Below, one piece after another: positions 15,002 through 22,166 of a DNA stretch of 47,502 nt. The translations under genes and the position numbers were made by a program. Positions within the stretch are counted from its first letter, which is position 1, and every line of letters begins with the position of its first letter. Under the pieces are notes generated by a model, which searched no databases, had not been told where the DNA came from, and was given only the letters and a program-made list of their open reading frames with translations. Source of the stretch: an uncultured Pelagibacteraceae bacterium (lineage in GTDB: Bacteria > Pseudomonadota > Alphaproteobacteria > Pelagibacterales > Pelagibacteraceae); the NCBI GenBank assembly GCA_902588635.1, contig CACIPW010000004.1, positions 1 through 47,502 on the forward strand, in the 5' to 3' direction.

Positions 15002-15078
15002 GCGCTTGTAGCTCAATTGGATAGAGCGCCTGACTTCGGATCAGGAGGTTGAGGGTTCAAGTCCTTCCTGGCGCACCA
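15002..15078 (+). tRNA. tRNA-Arg (anticodon TCG)
   Basis: 77 bases with encoded CCA. The D arm is AGCTCAATTGGATAGAGC. The anticodon stem CCTGA/TCAGG holds the loop CTTCGGA, giving anticodon TCG. The T arm GAGGG/CCTTC holds the loop TTCAAGT. The acceptor stem GCGCTTG/CTGGCGC pairs except for one T-T position, with a G-T pair beside it. It reads CGA/CGG arginine codons. It borders the accessory-looking sugar gene block to its right, a common place for genome variation. Confidence 0.96.
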
Positions 15079-15118: not shown

Positions 15119-17671
15119 TTACTCTATTGAATTATTTTCTAATGATTTAATATTGATAAACTTATTTGATAATGAATTGTTATTTTTTTTAATTTCTTCA
15201 AAAAAATTCCAAGCCAAAACTAATATAACTGTGTTTTTATCTTTAATCTTTGTTTTTGCATAAATTGGAATATTTACTCCAGGTATAAATTTTTTATGTT
15301 TAAGTTTGTTATCTTCAACTATAAAGTCTATCTCATTTGATATTCCAAAAAAATTAAGAGCAGTAGTGGCTTTTGCAGGAGAACCATAGCCTACAATTTT
15401 TTTATTTTTCTTTTTCAAATCTCTAATATTTTTTACAACATTTTTTTTTAAATTTATTATTTTTTCAGCAAATTTTTCATAAGTTTTAAATTTTTTGACA
15501 CCGAATTTTTCTTCATTCTTTAATATCTTTATAACGCTGTTATGTTTTTTCATTTTTTCATTTTTTGTAATATAAATTCTTAATGATCCACCGTGAGTAT
15601 TAATTTTTTCAGCCTTATATATATTTGCTCCTATTTTATTAAAAAAATAATTTAAACTAGTTAATGACCAATAGTTATAATGTTCATGGTAAATATTATC
15701 AAAAGTTAAATCTTTTATAGTATTTATCAAATATTGTACCTCAATTATTACTGTTCCTTTTTTTGAAATTAATTTTAACATACATTCAGCCATAGATTTG
15801 AGATCATCAGAGTGTGCAAATACATTAGAAGCCAAAACCAAATCTGCATTTTTCTTAATTTTTTTTAAGTTTTTACTGTTTAAAAATCCATTAATAGTTT
15901 TAATGCCATTCTTTTTTGAAATTTTGCAAAGATTTTTTGCTGGCTCTATACCCAATAATTTTTTTATTCCTAATTTTTTGAAAGGTATTAATCCAACTCC
16001 ATCATTACTACCAATGTCTACAATATAAGATTTTTTATTTAATTTTAATTCTTTAAAATAATTTTTTGCAGCATCTTCAAAATGTTTTTTAAATGTTGAT
16101 GATGTAGATGAAAGATAGAAATAATTTGTAAACATTTTTTTTGGATCTACAGAAACTGATAGTTGAGCATTGTAGCAATTTTCACAGTAATTCATTTCAA
16201 GTGGAAATTTTTCAATCTTTTCATTTTTAGAATTAATTAAATTGTTTGCAAGAGGTTGAAAGCCTAGAGAAATTACTCTTTTTAGTTTATTGTTTCCACA
16301 ACAACGGCAATTAATTTTATATGTAGATAATAAATTGTCCCTGTCTTTTTTGTTTATTAGTTCATATGGCAAGGTGTGAGTTATTCCATAATTTTCGTGC
16401 TCTCTTTCACCTCTAACTAAATTTAAAAAAACAGAGTCTTTAGTGAAAACCATTGCATGTGCCACATTTGGTTTTGTAACAATTAAATCTCCTTCGTTAA
16501 CCACGTGAGTTATTCTATGAGGTTTTTCATTAATTAGATCTTTATAAACACTAATATATTGACCTTTAACCAATAAACACTTTTGTTCTTGTATTGGATG
16601 AAAATGATTAGCTCTAATTGTTCCTTTTTTCGATTCAATGTAACCTACCAAATTTACTGGTTCTGTTAGTTCGTAATTACTTATCTTTCCTCTATAATCT
16701 ATAAATTCGTTTTTACCTTTAAAATTTTCCTCTAAGTTATTTTTATTAATTTTATAAGTCCATTTTTCAATCATTTCTTTTATTGAGTCTTCAAGATTGT
16801 ATAAAAATTTGAAACCAGTATTAAGTAATTTACGATTTGACAAAGTATAACCTAAGTTTGGAGTTTCATCTTCTGTGGTCTCTATATTTGTTTTGGGGTT
16901 TATTTTTTTACAAATTTCAGCAACATCTTTTACAGTTGTTTCTTCATTTGAGAGATGAAAAATTTCTTTTTTTATATTCTCTTTTTCTTCCATGAATTTC
17001 ATACATCTTACAACGTCAATTACATTAACAAGACTTTTTAATTGTTTTCCTCCCGAAAATAATTTTATAGTTCCATTTTGTGATGAAATCTTTGAAAATA
17101 AATTAGGCATTATATTTATTCTCATTGCATCAAGAGAATAACCATAAACTGAACCTAGCCTTAATATTACATAATTTTTTTTTGATTTTTTAATGTCCTT
17201 TTCATTTTGAACTTTGCTAGCAGAATACATTAAAATAGGTTTTGGATTTTCTGTTTCTACAATATTTCTTTTTGCTTCATTCATGCCTTCAAATATTACA
17301 TGCGTAGATGGAAATATTATTTTACATTTATCAGAAGTTGATTTTAAAATATTATTAGTACCGTCAACTGCTATTGATCTTATTTTTTCATCCAGTTCAT
17401 TTGTTGTGTCTTTTCCAACATATGCTACATCTGTAATTCCGGCCAAATGGTATACTACATCAGCATTGTACAAATGTTGTTCTAAAAATTTAAAATCTAG
17501 GATATGTCCTTGAAAAAATTCGATGCCCCAATCCTTTAATTGAGATACTCTTTCAGATAAAAATCTATTATCTATGGCAATTATTTTGTTTTGCCAACTT
17601 TCACCAGAATAAATTTTGCACAACTCTGTGCCAAGATATCCTAGAGCTCCTACTATAACTATTTTTTTCAT
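15119..17671 (-). CDS. NAD-epimerase / cupin / C-methyltransferase fusion protein
   Basis: 850 residues with at least three domains. Residues 1-305 form a short-chain dehydrogenase/epimerase with the Rossmann motif GALGYLG (8-14) and catalytic YSASK (149-153). Residues about 330-445 form a cupin like sugar isomerases, with NHFHP (355-359) and PNVAHAMVF. Residues about 453-850 form a sugar C-methyltransferase: zinc-knuckle cysteines (455, 457, 458, 496, 499), SAM motif VDIGSNDG (551-558), IYHEHYNYWSL and the C-terminal GYGSPAKATT motif. The likely role is building a branched, methylated deoxysugar on a nucleotide for surface polysaccharide. It follows a GT2 gene after 13 bases on the same strand. 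The exact sugar cannot be named. Confidence 0.85.
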   Translation of the reverse strand: MKKIVIVGALGYLGTELCKIYSGESWQNKIIAIDNRFLSERVSQLKDWGIEFFQGHILDFKFLEQHLYNADVVYHLAGITDVAYVGKDTTNELDEKIRSIAVDGTNNILKSTSDKCKIIFPSTHVIFEGMNEAKRNIVETENPKPILMYSASKVQNEKDIKKSKKNYVILRLGSVYGYSLDAMRINIMPNLFSKISSQNGTIKLFSGGKQLKSLVNVIDVVRCMKFMEEKENIKKEIFHLSNEETTVKDVAEICKKINPKTNIETTEDETPNLGYTLSNRKLLNTGFKFLYNLEDSIKEMIEKWTYKINKNNLEENFKGKNEFIDYRGKISNYELTEPVNLVGYIESKKGTIRANHFHPIQEQKCLLVKGQYISVYKDLINEKPHRITHVVNEGDLIVTKPNVAHAMVFTKDSVFLNLVRGEREHENYGITHTLPYELINKKDRDNLLSTYKINCRCCGNNKLKRVISLGFQPLANNLINSKNEKIEKFPLEMNYCENCYNAQLSVSVDPKKMFTNYFYLSSTSSTFKKHFEDAAKNYFKELKLNKKSYIVDIGSNDGVGLIPFKKLGIKKLLGIEPAKNLCKISKKNGIKTINGFLNSKNLKKIKKNADLVLASNVFAHSDDLKSMAECMLKLISKKGTVIIEVQYLINTIKDLTFDNIYHEHYNYWSLTSLNYFFNKIGANIYKAEKINTHGGSLRIYITKNEKMKKHNSVIKILKNEEKFGVKKFKTYEKFAEKIINLKKNVVKNIRDLKKKNKKIVGYGSPAKATTALNFFGISNEIDFIVEDNKLKHKKFIPGVNIPIYAKTKIKDKNTVILVLAWNFFEEIKKNNNSLSNKFINIKSLENNSIE

Positions 17672-17684
17672 TTAATTTAAACTT

Positions 17685-18374
17685 TTATATAAATCTTTCA
17701 CGCACAATTCTAAAAATTACACTAAAGATATGATAAAATTTAATTTTTTTTCCTTCTTCGTGAGTTCTGCCATTATAAGAAATAGGAACTTCATAAAATT
17801 TTTTACCCTTTTTAACCACTTTACAAAGAATTTCTGCATGTTGTTCAAATCCTGAAGTTCTAAGCTCATTGTAGTCTAATAGTTTATTTTTATAACAAAG
17901 ATAACAAGAATAAATATCAGTAAATGTTGTGTTGTAAAGAATATTAAAAATAAAAGTCAAAAAATAATTACCAATTTTATTTAATATATTGTGTGATCTC
18001 ATGTATTCACTAAAGTTAAATCTAGATCCAATAATAACATCTGCGTCAAATTCCCTACAAACTCTAATAAATTTTTTAAACTCAATTGGATCATATTCAA
18101 GGTCGCCATCTTGAAAGATTATATAATCTCCTTTGGCAATCTTAAGTCCTTCTCTTACCGAATATCCTTTGCCTGAATTTTTATTATTATTTATTAATGT
18201 TGAAAATAGATTTTTATTATTTTCTAATAAATTTTTAGTATCATCTGTTGAGCCGTCGTTAATTACAATAAATTCATATTCTATATTTTCTATTTTGGTT
18301 TGATTGAGTCTCTCTAGTAGTTTTAAAATCGTTTTTTCTTCGTTAAACACTGGAATTATTACTGAAAATTTCAT
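17685..18374 (-). CDS. Family 2 glycosyltransferase (DPM1-like)
   Basis: 229 residues from the preferred ATG at 18374; an ATG at 18395 would add seven hydrophobic residues before the standard MKFSVIIPVFNEE start. GT-A fold signatures are VIIPVFNEEKT, VINDGSTDDT, SGKGYSVREG and the metal-binding FQDGDLEYDP. This resembles polyprenyl-phosphate sugar transferases without the C-terminal membrane part. There is a short hydrophobic stretch GNYFLTFIFNILYN. It lies 13 bases upstream of the fusion gene, so both likely serve one surface glycan pathway. Confidence 0.88.
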   Translation of the reverse strand: MKFSVIIPVFNEEKTILKLLERLNQTKIENIEYEFIVINDGSTDDTKNLLENNKNLFSTLINNNKNSGKGYSVREGLKIAKGDYIIFQDGDLEYDPIEFKKFIRVCREFDADVIIGSRFNFSEYMRSHNILNKIGNYFLTFIFNILYNTTFTDIYSCYLCYKNKLLDYNELRTSGFEQHAEILCKVVKKGKKFYEVPISYNGRTHEEGKKIKFYHIFSVIFRIVRERFI

Positions 18375-18473
18375 AAATATAATTAAATAAAACAATTTAT
18401 ACTAAATTTAATCTATTAAAAGAATAAATATAATTGTAATAAAATTGAAAGTTAATTGAAAAAAAATTAATTT

Positions 18474-19451
18474 ATGAAAAAAAAGGTAGAAAAAGATATA
18501 TCTATTTTGATACCCTCAAAGATCATAGATGATAATCTGAGGTACTGCATAAAACAAATAAGAAAATTTTACAAAAATATAAAAATAATTTTAGTTTTAG
18601 ATAAACCTTCAGAATCTAAAATGGATAAAAATATTCAAATAGTAATTTCAGGAAATGAAACTATTGGATTTAAAAGAAATTTAGGTCTCAAGTATGTAAT
18701 TACTAAATTTGTATCTTTTATTGATAGCGACGCTTACCCAAATTCACGTTGGTTAGATGAAAGTTTAAATTTGTTTAAAGATAAAAAAATTGCTTTAGTA
18801 GGTGGACCAAATTTATCTCCTAAAACAAAAAATGTTGAAAAAATTTTAGTTGCAAGATCAAGAAGAAATTCAATAGTTACACTTAATCCCAAAGTAAAAT
18901 CTATTAAAACTAACAAGCATTTTATAAATTTTTTACCCAGTTGTAATATGATAATGAGAACTTCAATATATAAAAAAATTAAAGGGATGGACTCAAGACT
19001 CTACTCCAGTGAAGAAATTTCATTAAACTACAAATTAAACAAAAAAGGTTTTAAAATGATTTTTAGTCCCAAAGTTTTTGTTTTTCATTCTGATAGAAAT
19101 TTTAAACATTTTGCTCGCCAAAGGTTTATTTATGGTTCAACTGGCTTATGGTATTTAATAAGATACCCATGTAAGGAAAGTTTTATGTTGTTTGCATCAA
19201 GCTTTCCAACATTATTTGTTTTATTTTTTCCAATGGTATTCATTAGTAATGCCTTAAAGTTAACTTTTTTATTAGGTATATTTTTCCTAATTTTATTAAT
19301 ATTTATAAATAGTGTGAAAATTAATTTTAAAAATAATTTTATTAAAAGTGTAAAATTATCTTTAATAAGTTTTTTTTATCCAGGTCTCGGTCTTCTTGCG
19401 AGAATTTTTTTGAAAAACAATACGTTTAAAAAATTGTATACACAAAAATAA
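18474..19451 (+). CDS. Membrane-associated family 2 glycosyltransferase
   Basis: 325 residues. The N-terminal ISILIPSK begins a GT-A fold. GFKRNLGLKYV and the metal site DSD at 84-86 (FIDSDAYPNSRWLDE) follow, with ALVGGPNLSP and the acceptor-side motif SSEEISLNYKLNKKGFKM. The C-terminal third has about three hydrophobic helices (about 235-325), suggesting membrane attachment. It is divergent from the other GT2 gene and two bases ahead of the radical SAM gene, with which it is surely co-transcribed. Donor and acceptor are unknown. Confidence 0.85.
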   Translation: MKKKVEKDISILIPSKIIDDNLRYCIKQIRKFYKNIKIILVLDKPSESKMDKNIQIVISGNETIGFKRNLGLKYVITKFVSFIDSDAYPNSRWLDESLNLFKDKKIALVGGPNLSPKTKNVEKILVARSRRNSIVTLNPKVKSIKTNKHFINFLPSCNMIMRTSIYKKIKGMDSRLYSSEEISLNYKLNKKGFKMIFSPKVFVFHSDRNFKHFARQRFIYGSTGLWYLIRYPCKESFMLFASSFPTLFVLFFPMVFISNALKLTFLLGIFFLILLIFINSVKINFKNNFIKSVKLSLISFFYPGLGLLARIFLKNNTFKKLYTQK

Positions 19452-19453
19452 AA

Positions 19454-20557
19454 ATGATATTAAAAAAAGCAAATATAGCAAAAGTTTTAAATAATGTGTA
19501 TTTTAAAAAAAAAACTCCTATTAGTCTTATTCATTTTTTAACAAATAGATGTAACGCAAGATGCTCTTTCTGTTTTATTGATTTTGATAATCCAAAAACT
19601 TTTGTTGGAGAATTAACTTTAGAAGAAATTGATAAAATGACAAAAAATATGGGAGAAACTTTATTGAATGTGAATTTTACTGGTGGGGAACCTTTTGCAA
19701 GAAAAGATATTGTAGAGATAGCAAAAACCTACATAAGAAATACAACTATTCAATCAATTTATATAACTACTAATGCAAGTCTACCCGAGAGAGTAATTGA
19801 TTTTGCCAAAGAAATTAATAATTTTGATCCTAATATTGAATTAAGTTTTCAAATATCTATAGATGATCTACCAGAAAAACATAATTCTGTAAGAAAAATT
19901 AAAAATTTATTTGATAGCTGCTTAATTACTTACAATGGTCTTAGAGATCTAAAAAATCCAAAGATTAACCCATCTGTTAACATAACTGTCTCAGAGGAAA
20001 ACTGTTCTAATATAAAATCTATTTTTTATTACTTTGTTAATGAATGCAATTTAGACTCTATAAAATGCTGTATAGTAAGAGACGAAGGTATATACAAAAC
20101 AGCAGATGATAAAAAAAAAAAAATATTGGATGCATATACATGGCTAACTGAAGAAATTAAAAATTTAAAAAAATCAAAAAAAATCAAAAATTATAACAAC
20201 TCCCTCCAAGGCAAAATTCATAATACAAAAGATGATATTTCTTGGGAAATGGTAAAAAAAATTTATAAAGACAATGCTTATATAAGTCCATGTCATGCAT
20301 CATCTTTGTTTGGCGTAATAACTGCTGATGGAAAAATTTACCCATGTGAGATACTTGAGGATAAATTAATAGGCGATTTAAGAAAAAATGATATGGATTT
20401 TTTAAAAGTATGGAATAGTTCTATAAACTCAGATATTAAGAGATTTATACATGAAACCAATTGTAGGTGTACCTATGAATGTGCAATTTCTTTTAATATT
20501 TTGGGTAATTGGCGTTATCAACACAAACTAATTTCTAGCTTTTTGAATCGTTATTAA
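19454..20557 (+). CDS. Radical SAM protein with SPASM/twitch-like C-terminus
   Basis: 367 residues. The 4Fe-4S radical SAM site is C33-x3-C37-x2-C40 in NRCNARCSFC, and GGEP at 77-80 is the SAM-binding segment. The C-terminal part has further cysteines (C280, C298, C337, C339, C343) in a SPASM-like arrangement around ITADGKIYPCEILED and CRCTYEC, suggesting one auxiliary cluster. Such enzymes modify peptides, proteins or sugars. The neighbours are glycosyltransferases and an ABC exporter, so the substrate may be a glycan or a small peptide. Function is not known. Confidence 0.85.
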   Translation: MILKKANIAKVLNNVYFKKKTPISLIHFLTNRCNARCSFCFIDFDNPKTFVGELTLEEIDKMTKNMGETLLNVNFTGGEPFARKDIVEIAKTYIRNTTIQSIYITTNASLPERVIDFAKEINNFDPNIELSFQISIDDLPEKHNSVRKIKNLFDSCLITYNGLRDLKNPKINPSVNITVSEENCSNIKSIFYYFVNECNLDSIKCCIVRDEGIYKTADDKKKKILDAYTWLTEEIKNLKKSKKIKNYNNSLQGKIHNTKDDISWEMVKKIYKDNAYISPCHASSLFGVITADGKIYPCEILEDKLIGDLRKNDMDFLKVWNSSINSDIKRFIHETNCRCTYECAISFNILGNWRYQHKLISSFLNRY

Positions 20558-20650
20558 ATGAAAATTAATTTATCAAAAAATATTATAAAAAAAATAAATA
20601 AAAATATTTTTCTTTATATTATTTTAATTTTTACAAATAAATTTAATTAC

Positions 20651-21442
20651 CTACTCCCCGATGTTGATTAAAGTTCCCTTTTTTCTAGCTTTGGCAAAAG
20701 AATAATAAAATAAGGCAATCGCAGTTGCTAGATAAATTCCATTTAAATAAAATGCAATTATTATATTTTGATAATTAACACTTTGATTAATAAGTATGTT
20801 CCTAGCTTCTTCAAAAATATAAACAAGGGGAAGCGAGTAAGCTATTTTTTGAAAAAAATCAGGTAAAATTTCTATAGGGTAATAAATACACCCAAAAGGT
20901 GCCAATAAAAACATTGTTGACCAAGCAATATTTTCAAACGAAGGACCAAATCTTAATAAACCTGATGAAACAAATATCCCTAGAGTAATTCCAAATATAT
21001 ATAAACTTAAAAAAAGAAAAAATAAATGTACCCCAAGATCTAATAAAGATATTCCAAAAAGTGGAGATGTTAAGAGAATTGCAGGTATTAAACCAATTAG
21101 GGCTCTAATTAGCGCAGTAAAAACTAAAGAAATTATTATTTCGCTTATTTTTATTGGAGCAATAAATAAATTTGTAAAATTTCTGCTCCATATTTCTTCT
21201 AAAAACAACATGTTAAACCCAATACTTGTCCTAAATAAAAAATCATACAAAATTGCACAAGTTAATATTACCCCGACGGCATTGTTGTAATAAGTGCTAT
21301 GATTGGCAAAAAAATTAGAGATAAAACCCCACAATGTTATCTGAATTGAAGGCCAGTATATTAAATCTAAAATTCTTGGAAAAGATCTAGTAATTAAAAA
21401 AAAATGCCTTAAAAAAAGACCATATATTCTATTAAATTTCAT
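20651..21442 (-). CDS. ABC-2 type transporter permease
   Basis: 263 residues with about six hydrophobic segments. The pattern of the ABC-2 family of exporters is visible (RFGPSFENIAWSTMFLLAPFGCIYYPIEILPDFFQ). It starts inside the ATPase gene (11-base overlap), so the two form one exporter. ABC-2 systems export polysaccharides, lipids or drugs. Next to two sugar transferases and a radical SAM gene, a surface-glycan or lipid export role is reasonable but not proven. Confidence 0.88.
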   Translation of the reverse strand: MKFNRIYGLFLRHFFLITRSFPRILDLIYWPSIQITLWGFISNFFANHSTYYNNAVGVILTCAILYDFLFRTSIGFNMLFLEEIWSRNFTNLFIAPIKISEIIISLVFTALIRALIGLIPAILLTSPLFGISLLDLGVHLFFLFLSLYIFGITLGIFVSSGLLRFGPSFENIAWSTMFLLAPFGCIYYPIEILPDFFQKIAYSLPLVYIFEEARNILINQSVNYQNIIIAFYLNGIYLATAIALFYYSFAKARKKGTLINIGE

Positions 21443-22166
21443 TTTTGTTTCTTGTAAGTTTTAAGAATACTTCTTCTAAATTTTGTCTACCATGTTTTGC
21501 GATCAATTCTTCAGGTTTACCTTTGTCTATGATAACACCTTCTTTCATCATTAATACAGATGAACACAATCTTGTTACTTCGCTCATATTATGAGAAGCC
21601 AATAAGATAGATATTCTTTTTTCTCTTTTATAATTTTCTAAAAAAGTTCTAATAAAATCTCCAATTTCAGGATCTAAAGATGCTGTTGGTTCATCCAAAA
21701 ATAATACAACAGGGTCATTAATTAAAGCTTTTGCTAAACTTGCTCTATTTTTTTGACCCGAAGAAAGTTCACCTGTTATTTTATTTAATAGTTCTTCTAA
21801 TCTTAATTTATTAGCAAGATATTCAATTCTGCTTTTTAGATTTTTTACACTATATAGTTTTCCATATACAATTAAATTTTGTTTTACAGTTAGTTTTTTT
21901 GGCAATTCTATATATGGTGAGATAAAATTTATTTTTTGAAGAATGCTAATTCTATTTTTTTCAATTTTCATTCCATTTATATTTATTTGACCGTTAGAAG
22001 GTTTTAACAAACCAAGTAGCATTCCTATAGTTGTTGTTTTTCCACAACCATTTGGACCCAAAAGTCCAATTATTTCATTTTCTTTAATTTTAAAATTGAT
22101 ACCTTTCACAGCATCTTTTTTGCCGTAAGATTTAGAAAGATTTATAACTTCTACTGAATTTTCCAT
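21432..22166 (-). CDS. ABC transporter ATP-binding protein
   Basis: 244 residues. Walker A GPNGCGKT is at 37-44, the signature is ELSSGQKNRASLAKAL, Walker B is VLFLDEPTASLDP, and the switch histidine appears in LLASHNMSEV. It powers the permease encoded just downstream with an 11-base overlap. Its start shares one base with the tsaC stop, so tsaC, ATPase and permease form one transcript. The drug/polysaccharide exporter class is inferred from the ABC-2 partner. Confidence 0.92.
   Translation of the reverse strand: MENSVEVINLSKSYGKKDAVKGINFKIKENEIIGLLGPNGCGKTTTIGMLLGLLKPSNGQININGMKIEKNRISILQKINFISPYIELPKKLTVKQNLIVYGKLYSVKNLKSRIEYLANKLRLEELLNKITGELSSGQKNRASLAKALINDPVVLFLDEPTASLDPEIGDFIRTFLENYKREKRISILLASHNMSEVTRLCSSVLMMKEGVIIDKGKPEELIAKHGRQNLEEVFLKLTRNKNEI

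Follow-up and report, generated by a model that had tools for sequence, protein, structure and literature searches.

A predicted three-domain nucleotide-sugar branching enzyme, encoded in a single reading frame by SAR11 bacteria and by viruses

Why would a SAR11 bacterium join three activities of nucleotide-sugar biosynthesis in one polypeptide, and what might that polypeptide make? The question is raised by a gene on the minus strand (positions 15119..17671) of a 47,502-nucleotide stretch of an uncultured Pelagibacteraceae genome (GenBank assembly GCA_902588635.1, contig CACIPW010000004.1), hereafter the window. SAR11 bacteria rank with the most abundant cells of the ocean, and the chemistry of their surface sugars is, to our knowledge, poorly understood. 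The gene is a single open reading frame (ORF) with an ATG start and encodes 850 residues, which we divide into a nicotinamide adenine dinucleotide (NAD)-type short-chain dehydrogenase/reductase (SDR; residues 1–311), a cupin (residues 312–452) and a TylC3-type C-methyltransferase (residues 453–850). A preliminary description, made from the DNA letters alone, had read it as an unbroken fusion of an epimerase, a cupin and a C-methyltransferase, activities that are normally separate enzymes, with a branched nucleotide sugar as the likely product. The ORF call, the Pfam matches and the motifs bear out the unbroken three-domain frame, all three domains keep their catalytic residues, and both the usual separateness of the activities and the proposed product are supported. 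We consider the chances about even that the fusion is a three-domain nucleotide-sugar branching enzyme whose SDR itself makes the 4-ketone on which the other two domains act. The component families are known; the architecture, its near-universal status in one SAR11 genus (g8) and its sharing with viruses appear to be new, and searches of open-licence literature turned up neither a description of the SDR–cupin–methyltransferase architecture nor a characterized family that has it.

All of the motifs quoted in the preliminary description occur in the translation: GALGYLG, YSASK (residues 149–153), NHFHP (355–359), VDIGSNDG (551–558) and GYGSPAKATT (761–770). In a Pfam scan of the whole protein, the N-terminal part matched Epimerase (PF01370; residues 4–237), RmlD_sub_bind (PF04321; 3–257) and 3Beta_HSD (PF01073; 5–165) and the C-terminal part matched, in order, Methyltransf_13 (455–514), Methyltransf_23 (543–685) and Methyltransf_14 (692–835), all above the curated Pfam cut-offs; the cupin, scanned by itself, had matches below them. 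Residue conservation was assessed in 116 distinct fused sequences, comprising 36 viral copies and 80 SAR11 copies, the latter being the best 80 of 209 relatives in genome contigs, to which all counts out of 80 below refer. Tyr149 and Lys153 of the SDR, His356, His358 and His405 of the cupin and His662-Glu663-His664 of the methyltransferase are kept in 116 of the 116.

The SDR domain (16739..17671, minus strand, as are all parts of the gene) is complete, as had been claimed. It has an extended SDR fold with the GxxGYxG and YxxxK motifs, the latter being the catalytic Y149-S-A-S-K153 (17213..17227), and an acidic residue after strand 2 (Asp34) in all 115 sequences that have a residue there, which we take to be a sign of an NAD-type SDR. 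The Asp-Glu dyad of dehydratases (as in SSDEVYG or STDEVYG) is missing, with His124-Val125 at that position in all 116 sequences; the fusion reads S-T-H-V where the SDRs of two unfused operons described below read SSDEVYG. A role as a 4,6-dehydratase was rejected because this dyad is missing, and the curated NCBIfam cut-offs for NDP-sugar (nucleoside diphosphate sugar) 4,6-dehydratases (RmlB/GMD/RfbG) were not reached. The reading of the domain as an epimerase is modified in that the nearest solved relative is a C4-dehydrogenase, Cj1427 (PDB entries 6vo6 and 6vo8), with a chain of 321 residues that is an SDR alone. In a profile search of the PDB 6vo6 was first with an E value of 1.3e-30, the next protein following at 1e-17. 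A structure model of residues 1–452, built from a 59-row alignment, has a mean predicted local distance difference test score of 90.4 and was used in preference to an earlier whole-protein model (22-row alignment) that was poor at residues 174–215 and 265–441. With this model Cj1427 was also the best VIA-align match, with Z scores of 35.0 and 34.8 (for 6vo6, Z of 35.0 and r.m.s.d. of 3.3 over 300 aligned residues), and the runner-up protein was a UDP-glucose 4-epimerase (Z of 32.5). The 50 PDB fold matches shown for the model were filled by SDRs, so that the missing rows for cupins and for CapF, the SDR–cupin enzyme considered below, carry no meaning; a search of a viral fold library likewise gave mostly SDR-type proteins, none of its rows being named as a three-domain architecture. 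To oxidize C4 of GDP-manno-heptose, Cj1427 uses tightly bound NAD(H), the NADH being recycled by 2-oxoglutarate; a C3/C5-epimerase and a C4-reductase act afterwards (PMC10680097; this and the other papers cited are drawn on from excerpts). The C3/C5-epimerases that follow oxidation of this type are cupins (PMC7949155).

The cupin domain (16316..16738) gave no match at 1e-3 in a whole-protein Pfam scan and is assigned from sub-cut-off Pfam matches together with a profile search of the PDB. In the latter, a profile of 27 cupins found Cap5F first (E value of 3.8e-6) and an FdtA-type 3,4-ketoisomerase (2pa7) second (1.3e-5), with an RmlC-type structure (2b9u) at 0.0019. At the family level, RmlC (PF00908) had no listed match for the window cupin and an E value of 0.095 for the relative at locus L057, and FdtA (PF05523) had 0.075 for the relative at locus L021. 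The motif NHFHP, with His356 and His358 (16595..16609), together with Glu362 and His405, forms a likely site for a metal. The fusion has an SDR followed by an HxH-bearing cupin in one chain; CapF/Cap5F (PDB entry 3st7) has the same order, and NHxH is common to both. CapF has no methyltransferase, its zinc cupin epimerizes and its own fused SDR is a reductase (PMC5393024). The preliminary description had left open whether the cupin is an isomerase or a sensor. The paired histidines that it noted are kept throughout, Pfam found no further domain in the fusion protein and, as judged from its residues and relatives, the domain resembles the catalytic metal cupins of CapF and FdtA more than a sensor, a role that is the less likely of the two.

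The methyltransferase domain (15122..16315) matches TylC3, the D-mycarose 3-C-methyltransferase (PDB entry 4rv9), with an E value of 6.2e-62 over residues 2–377 of 398, in addition to its Pfam matches. TylC3 and TcaB9 (PDB entry 3ndi) are alike to it over nearly the whole domain; they are stand-alone enzymes of antibiotic pathways, whereas the domain here is the C-terminal part of a larger protein. The stretch YHEH (residues 661–664; 15680..15691), a likely active site, aligns with IYHEH of TylC3 and IYDEH of TcaB9, and the zinc-cysteine part is aligned too. The four cysteines of this putative zinc site (Cys455, Cys458, Cys496 and Cys499; 16175..16309) are kept in 80 of the 80 SAR11 copies and, respectively, in 31, 29, 34 and 29 of the 36 viral copies; we assume that the four cysteines and the Y-x-E-H stretch have the roles that they have in TylC3/TcaB9-type enzymes. 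Such enzymes methylate C3 adjacent to a 4-ketone. By its sequence, the domain is a member of the TylC3/TcaB9-type C-methyltransferase family, and methylation of C3 is predicted. In Coxiella a TylCIII-like protein, CBU_0691, has been proposed from sequence to make the 3-C-methyl sugar virenose of lipopolysaccharide; that route differs from the fusion in using separate genes, and the excerpts drawn on mention no cupin–SDR fusion (PMC3539893). Elsewhere in the genome of the window, on contig C8, there is another TylC3-type methyltransferase, unfused and next to an SDR (locus L103, 7941-10182).

Taken together, the three domains suggest a scheme in which the SDR, acting as Cj1427 does, would oxidize C4 of a ready-made NDP-sugar to a 4-ketone with NAD. 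The cupin, probably with a metal, would epimerize C3 and/or C5 through the acidity beside the ketone, and the TylC3-type domain would methylate C3 of the 4-keto sugar with S-adenosylmethionine. The last step would be reduction of C4, for which the SDR could reuse its own NADH or a distinct reductase could serve, such as the Gfo/Idh/MocA protein found near some copies, and the branched NDP-sugar would pass to a linked glycosyltransferase, of family 2 (GT2) in the window and of family 17 (GT17) in many SAR11 genomes and some viruses, for use in a surface glycan. The three domains would thus meet at a single 4-keto sugar, each requiring or producing it, and this would account for their fusion. 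The recurrence of the domains, the residues and their conservation, the unfused operons of the same order and the viral copies are observed, and we infer in what order the steps run, which carbons are acted on, what is produced and that it is used at the surface. A fuller version, held only tentatively and on the whole rather unlikely, is a redox-neutral C-branching of an ordinary, non-deoxy NDP-sugar without a dehydratase: the bound NAD would oxidize C4, C3 (and C5) would be remodelled and the same NADH would return the hydride, with the enzyme near-core in one SAR11 genus, and T4-like and very large phages carrying it to alter the glycan coat of host or virion. The routes to branched sugars that we know of begin with a dehydratase; oxidation at C4, if it occurs, would be a dehydratase-free way to such sugars. 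Expression of a single gene would suffice to test the chemistry, since one protein seems to hold all three steps. The occurrence in viruses of a gene that is near-universal in one SAR11 genus points to a particular rare sugar, at a surface perhaps common to cells and phages.

Several results weigh against this reading. For the SDR, Foldseek placed Cj1427 first by a narrow margin (E value of 9.3e-24, against 3.9e-23 for UDP-glucose 4-epimerase) and the domain is 25% identical to Cj1427, which leaves room for a plain 4-epimerase or a 4-ketoreductase. The cupin searched alone (residues 312–452) matched Polysacc_synt_C (PF14667) with an E value of 4.1e-4 and 20.9 bits against a cut-off of 28.7, and Cupin_2 with 9.5e-4 and 19.3 bits against 27.2; in the profile search oxalate decarboxylases scored near Cap5F, from 2.7e-5; and Glu362, kept in 112 of the 116 fused sequences, is Gln in four of the 36 viral ones. 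In some viral copies the methyltransferase lacks part of its zinc cysteines but keeps the HEH. Finally, GT17 was not found in 24 of the 80 SAR11 loci, some of which have short flanks, nor in 25 of the 36 viral loci.

The alternative that survives best, a real possibility although short of probable, is that the fusion carries out the last three steps of a mycarose-like route, in which a separate 4,6-dehydratase (RmlB, RfbG or GMD) would act first, the methyltransferase at C3 and the cupin at C5, and the SDR would be the closing 4-ketoreductase, giving a 3-C-methyl-6-deoxy sugar. The solved relatives of the methyltransferase are named deoxysugar 3-C-methyltransferases; we take the substrates of TylC3 and TcaB9 to be 4-keto sugars of deoxythymidine diphosphate (dTDP). 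The reductase-type family RmlD_sub_bind scores 70.9 bits on the SDR against a cut-off of 27, although NCBIfam rmlD is far under its own cut-off. A plasmid cluster of Desulfolutivibrio has the order rfbF, rfbG, cupin, methyltransferase, acyltransferase and SDR, and this order, with rfbF and rfbG first and the SDR last, suits a reductase role for the SDR; a Brachyspira plasmid has rfbF, a radical S-adenosylmethionine (SAM) gene, a cupin and a methyltransferase. Against the mycarose-like route, the SDR is much nearer to Cj1427 by profile than to other solved SDRs, and the genes that recur beside the fusion in the 80 SAR11 loci include no dehydratase gene, nor was one seen in five g8 loci examined. 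Two unfused SAR11 operons (L099, 8613-11320, and L100, 12151-9523, the latter also with a divergent GT17) have SDR, cupin and methyltransferase in the same order, followed by a Gfo/Idh/MocA-type gene. Their cupins and methyltransferases are related to those of the fusion, but their SDRs, unlike that of the fusion, score as dTDP-glucose 4,6-dehydratases (E values of 3.4e-89 and 5.2e-86, below the curated cut-off) with SSDEVYG present, so that a dehydratase-type SDR occupies the same position and a Gfo/Idh-type protein follows the methyltransferase.

A census of donor enzymes in 11 fusion-bearing genomes, in which NTP_transferase matches were assigned by their similarity to typed references of four kinds and other matches were left unsorted, bears on both sides of this question. 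It found GalU-like proteins in 11 genomes, ManC-like in nine, RfbF-like in nine (one cut by a contig end) and RmlA-like in seven. The RfbF-like and RmlA-like counts favour a mycarose-like route; against it, some of the 11 genomes yielded no RmlA and some no RfbF, with GMD sorted in only part of the set. By these counts RmlA, RfbF and ManC are each missing somewhere, and only GalU, a maker of UDP-glucose, was always found. The references, except RmlA, lie below curated cut-offs, which counts against leaning on the census for the C4-oxidation scheme, and because the genomes are 61–98% complete and other matches were unsorted, GalU is a weak hint to the donor nucleotide; the census singled out none.

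It is improbable, in our estimate, that the SDR is mainly a scaffold or a 4-epimerase, with a plain epimerized or O-methylated product and a fusion without shared pathway logic. The 4-epimerases do lie close behind Cj1427 in the fold searches, and the SDR and methyltransferase are separate genes at two viral loci (L246 and L249). However, the catalytic residues are kept in all 116 sequences, the methyltransferase belongs to a C-methyltransferase family, and the three domains recur together, fused or neighbouring, in SAR11 bacteria and viruses.

A search for further three-domain proteins, as suggested in the preliminary description, found them in one frame in both SAR11 genomes and viral collections. 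All 80 SAR11 loci come from records titled Pelagibacteraceae, Pelagibacterales or Pelagibacter, and the fusion is a single frame in each of them (two have their start removed by a contig end). An even sample of 397 genomes from the order of the window gave 72 rows that span nearly the whole profile, that of the window included, and 28 of these belong to its own genus (g1). The fusion is patchy in g1, since the full fusion was present in none of 36 other g1 genomes of an earlier sample. Genus g8 has matches at E values of 1e-200 or below in 116 of 151 genomes, some of them partial owing to contig ends or stops, and the fusion is present in 11 of the 12 g8 genomes that are at least 90% complete. 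Three g8 copies (G241, G1184 and G1225) have stops within the matched stretch and are perhaps pseudogenes or assembly errors. A lon gene lies near the fusion in 57 of the 80 loci, 48 of them with a GT17 gene and 47 with nuo genes (the identities of the lon, nuoA, nuoB and GT17 neighbours being backed by Pfam), and the five g8 loci examined (L094, L096, L097, L098 and L254) all have the order lon, fusion, nuoA, four of them with GT17. Among eight fusion-free genomes that are complete or nearly so (seven of g1 and one of g5), five (L286, L289, L290, L292 and L293) have lon followed by nuoA directly or across no more than one small ORF, and this lon–nuoA junction is the empty site where g8 holds the fusion. 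Host sampling covered the phylum of the window, so other hosts are possible; within it, no protein of the same architecture outside SAR11 and viruses was found at E values of 1e-90 or below in 385 genomes of the class and 398 of the phylum, apart from that of the window itself, and these draws held one partial cupin and methyltransferase match (G899). None of 72,556 plasmids had a match covering 80% of the fusion.

A restriction of the fusion to one lineage was rejected, as it is present in viruses. A phage record of 642 kb (LR756502) carries a full-length fusion at 56% identity (tblastn), and scans of IMG/VR gave 29 loci with the fusion protein as query and 56 with the SDR profile. Of the 56, 42 have the three domains in one ORF (two of these truncated by an end) and six are cut by a contig end; the others comprise three with SDR and cupin only, one with a separate, overlapping methyltransferase gene, two that are interrupted and two with the SDR alone. 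Removal of identical proteins left 36 distinct viral fusions. The viral context was scanned with PHROGs for eight neighbour proteins from six loci, four of which (L169, L176, L244 and L252) are among the 36 distinct full-fusion loci, and seven of the eight proteins had matches: a terminase large subunit and a portal protein, encoded by the third and fourth genes downstream of the fusion, in L252, a DnaB-like helicase and a dUTPase in L169, an SbcD-like protein in L176 and, beside forms that are not full fusions, an SbcC-like protein in L177 and UvsX in L250. The GT17 of L244 had no PHROGs match and the fusion itself matched no PHROGs family at 1e-3. In L252 (7992-11366) the viral fusion has 1124 residues, an FkbM-type methyltransferase domain (PF05050; E value of 3.4e-15) being added at its C terminus.

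The arrangement is altered at several loci. At L223 (7974-10534, identical to L181), SDR–cupin and methyltransferase are two overlapping genes, possibly an intermediate or a secondary split of the fusion. The viral loci L200, L229 and L250 have a two-domain SDR–cupin protein with a different, distant methyltransferase gene next to it or one gene away, and in these the third domain seems to have been exchanged. A quick whole-protein tree places 32 SAR11 rows and 36 viral rows on either side of one branch with a support of 100 in the SH-aLRT (approximate likelihood-ratio) test. A methyltransferase tree, built from 25 of the 36 viral and 15 SAR11 fusions after five long-branched unfused rows had been dropped and with a bootstrap that had not settled, sets the fused methyltransferases apart from 11 unfused ones (100/100), with the SAR11 (100/99) and viral (93/87, including one split copy) copies as sisters, a result that fits one old origin of the fused methyltransferase. 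The SDR tree does not recover the viruses as one group; SAR11 is nested within them with weak support and a very distant outgroup.

That the copies in viral collections are bacterial DNA misread as viral, the family being only bacterial, is very unlikely: although the PHROGs scan took in neighbours at four of the 36 full-fusion loci, and the single neighbour scanned at L244, its GT17, matched nothing, the terminase and portal genes refute the idea for L252, L169 and L176 have phage-family genes, a deposited phage record carries the fusion, and viral and SAR11 copies separate in the whole-protein and methyltransferase trees. An assembly artefact or chance join, conceivable for a draft of 43 contigs that is 61% complete and raised in the preliminary description as a frameshift or assembly error, can be dismissed because the same single frame is intact in 80 of 80 SAR11 loci and in 36 distinct viral sequences. 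The genome streamlining that had been offered as the reason for the fusion is not its whole cause, because the same fusion occurs in viruses, some of which have extended series of sugar genes. A study of pelagimyophages proposed that phage glycosyltransferases alter the host O-chain against coinfection (PMC7029224), an idea that the viral fusions fit without proving it. A study of O-chain clusters in Pelagibacterales argues that an arms race with phages is not what drives the diversity of O-chains, and the words methyltransferase, epimerase and fusion do not occur in its main text (PMC11898729).

The probable partner of the fusion in the window is a GT2 glycosyltransferase (17685..18395, minus strand; PF00535, E value of 1.1e-28) encoded 13 bp upstream. 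A GT2 of this type lies immediately upstream on the same strand in eight of the 80 loci and in L095 of g1, in varied surroundings. GT17 is present in 56 of the 80 loci, in 52 of them immediately upstream and divergent, and in 11 of the 36 viral loci, in six of them immediately upstream (six GT17 references were confirmed by Pfam); the fused loci L062, L063 and L086 hold both a Gfo/Idh-type gene and GT17. When the DNA of the window was compared in 100-base bins with that of L025, one of the loci with such an upstream GT2, the GT2 gene (18400-17701) was 93–98% identical, the body of the fusion 53–77% and its last ∼200 bases 89–93%. The stretch 15200..17700 (minus strand) is thus a candidate swapped allele, and the pattern looks like replacement of the enzyme with retention of the transferase. 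As the allele appears to have been replaced while the GT2 stayed, both alleles are suggested to feed the same transferase. The DNA match with L025, and with L015, extends to 20500, the limit of the compared stretch. Beyond this GT2, the region 18474-22166 encodes a second GT2 (MftF-like; TIGR03965, E value of 2.7e-27, below the cut-off), a radical SAM/SPASM protein and a pair of ATP-binding cassette exporter proteins. On the other side, just past the 3′ end of the fusion and convergent with it, lies a tRNA-Arg (TCG) gene (15002..15078, plus strand).

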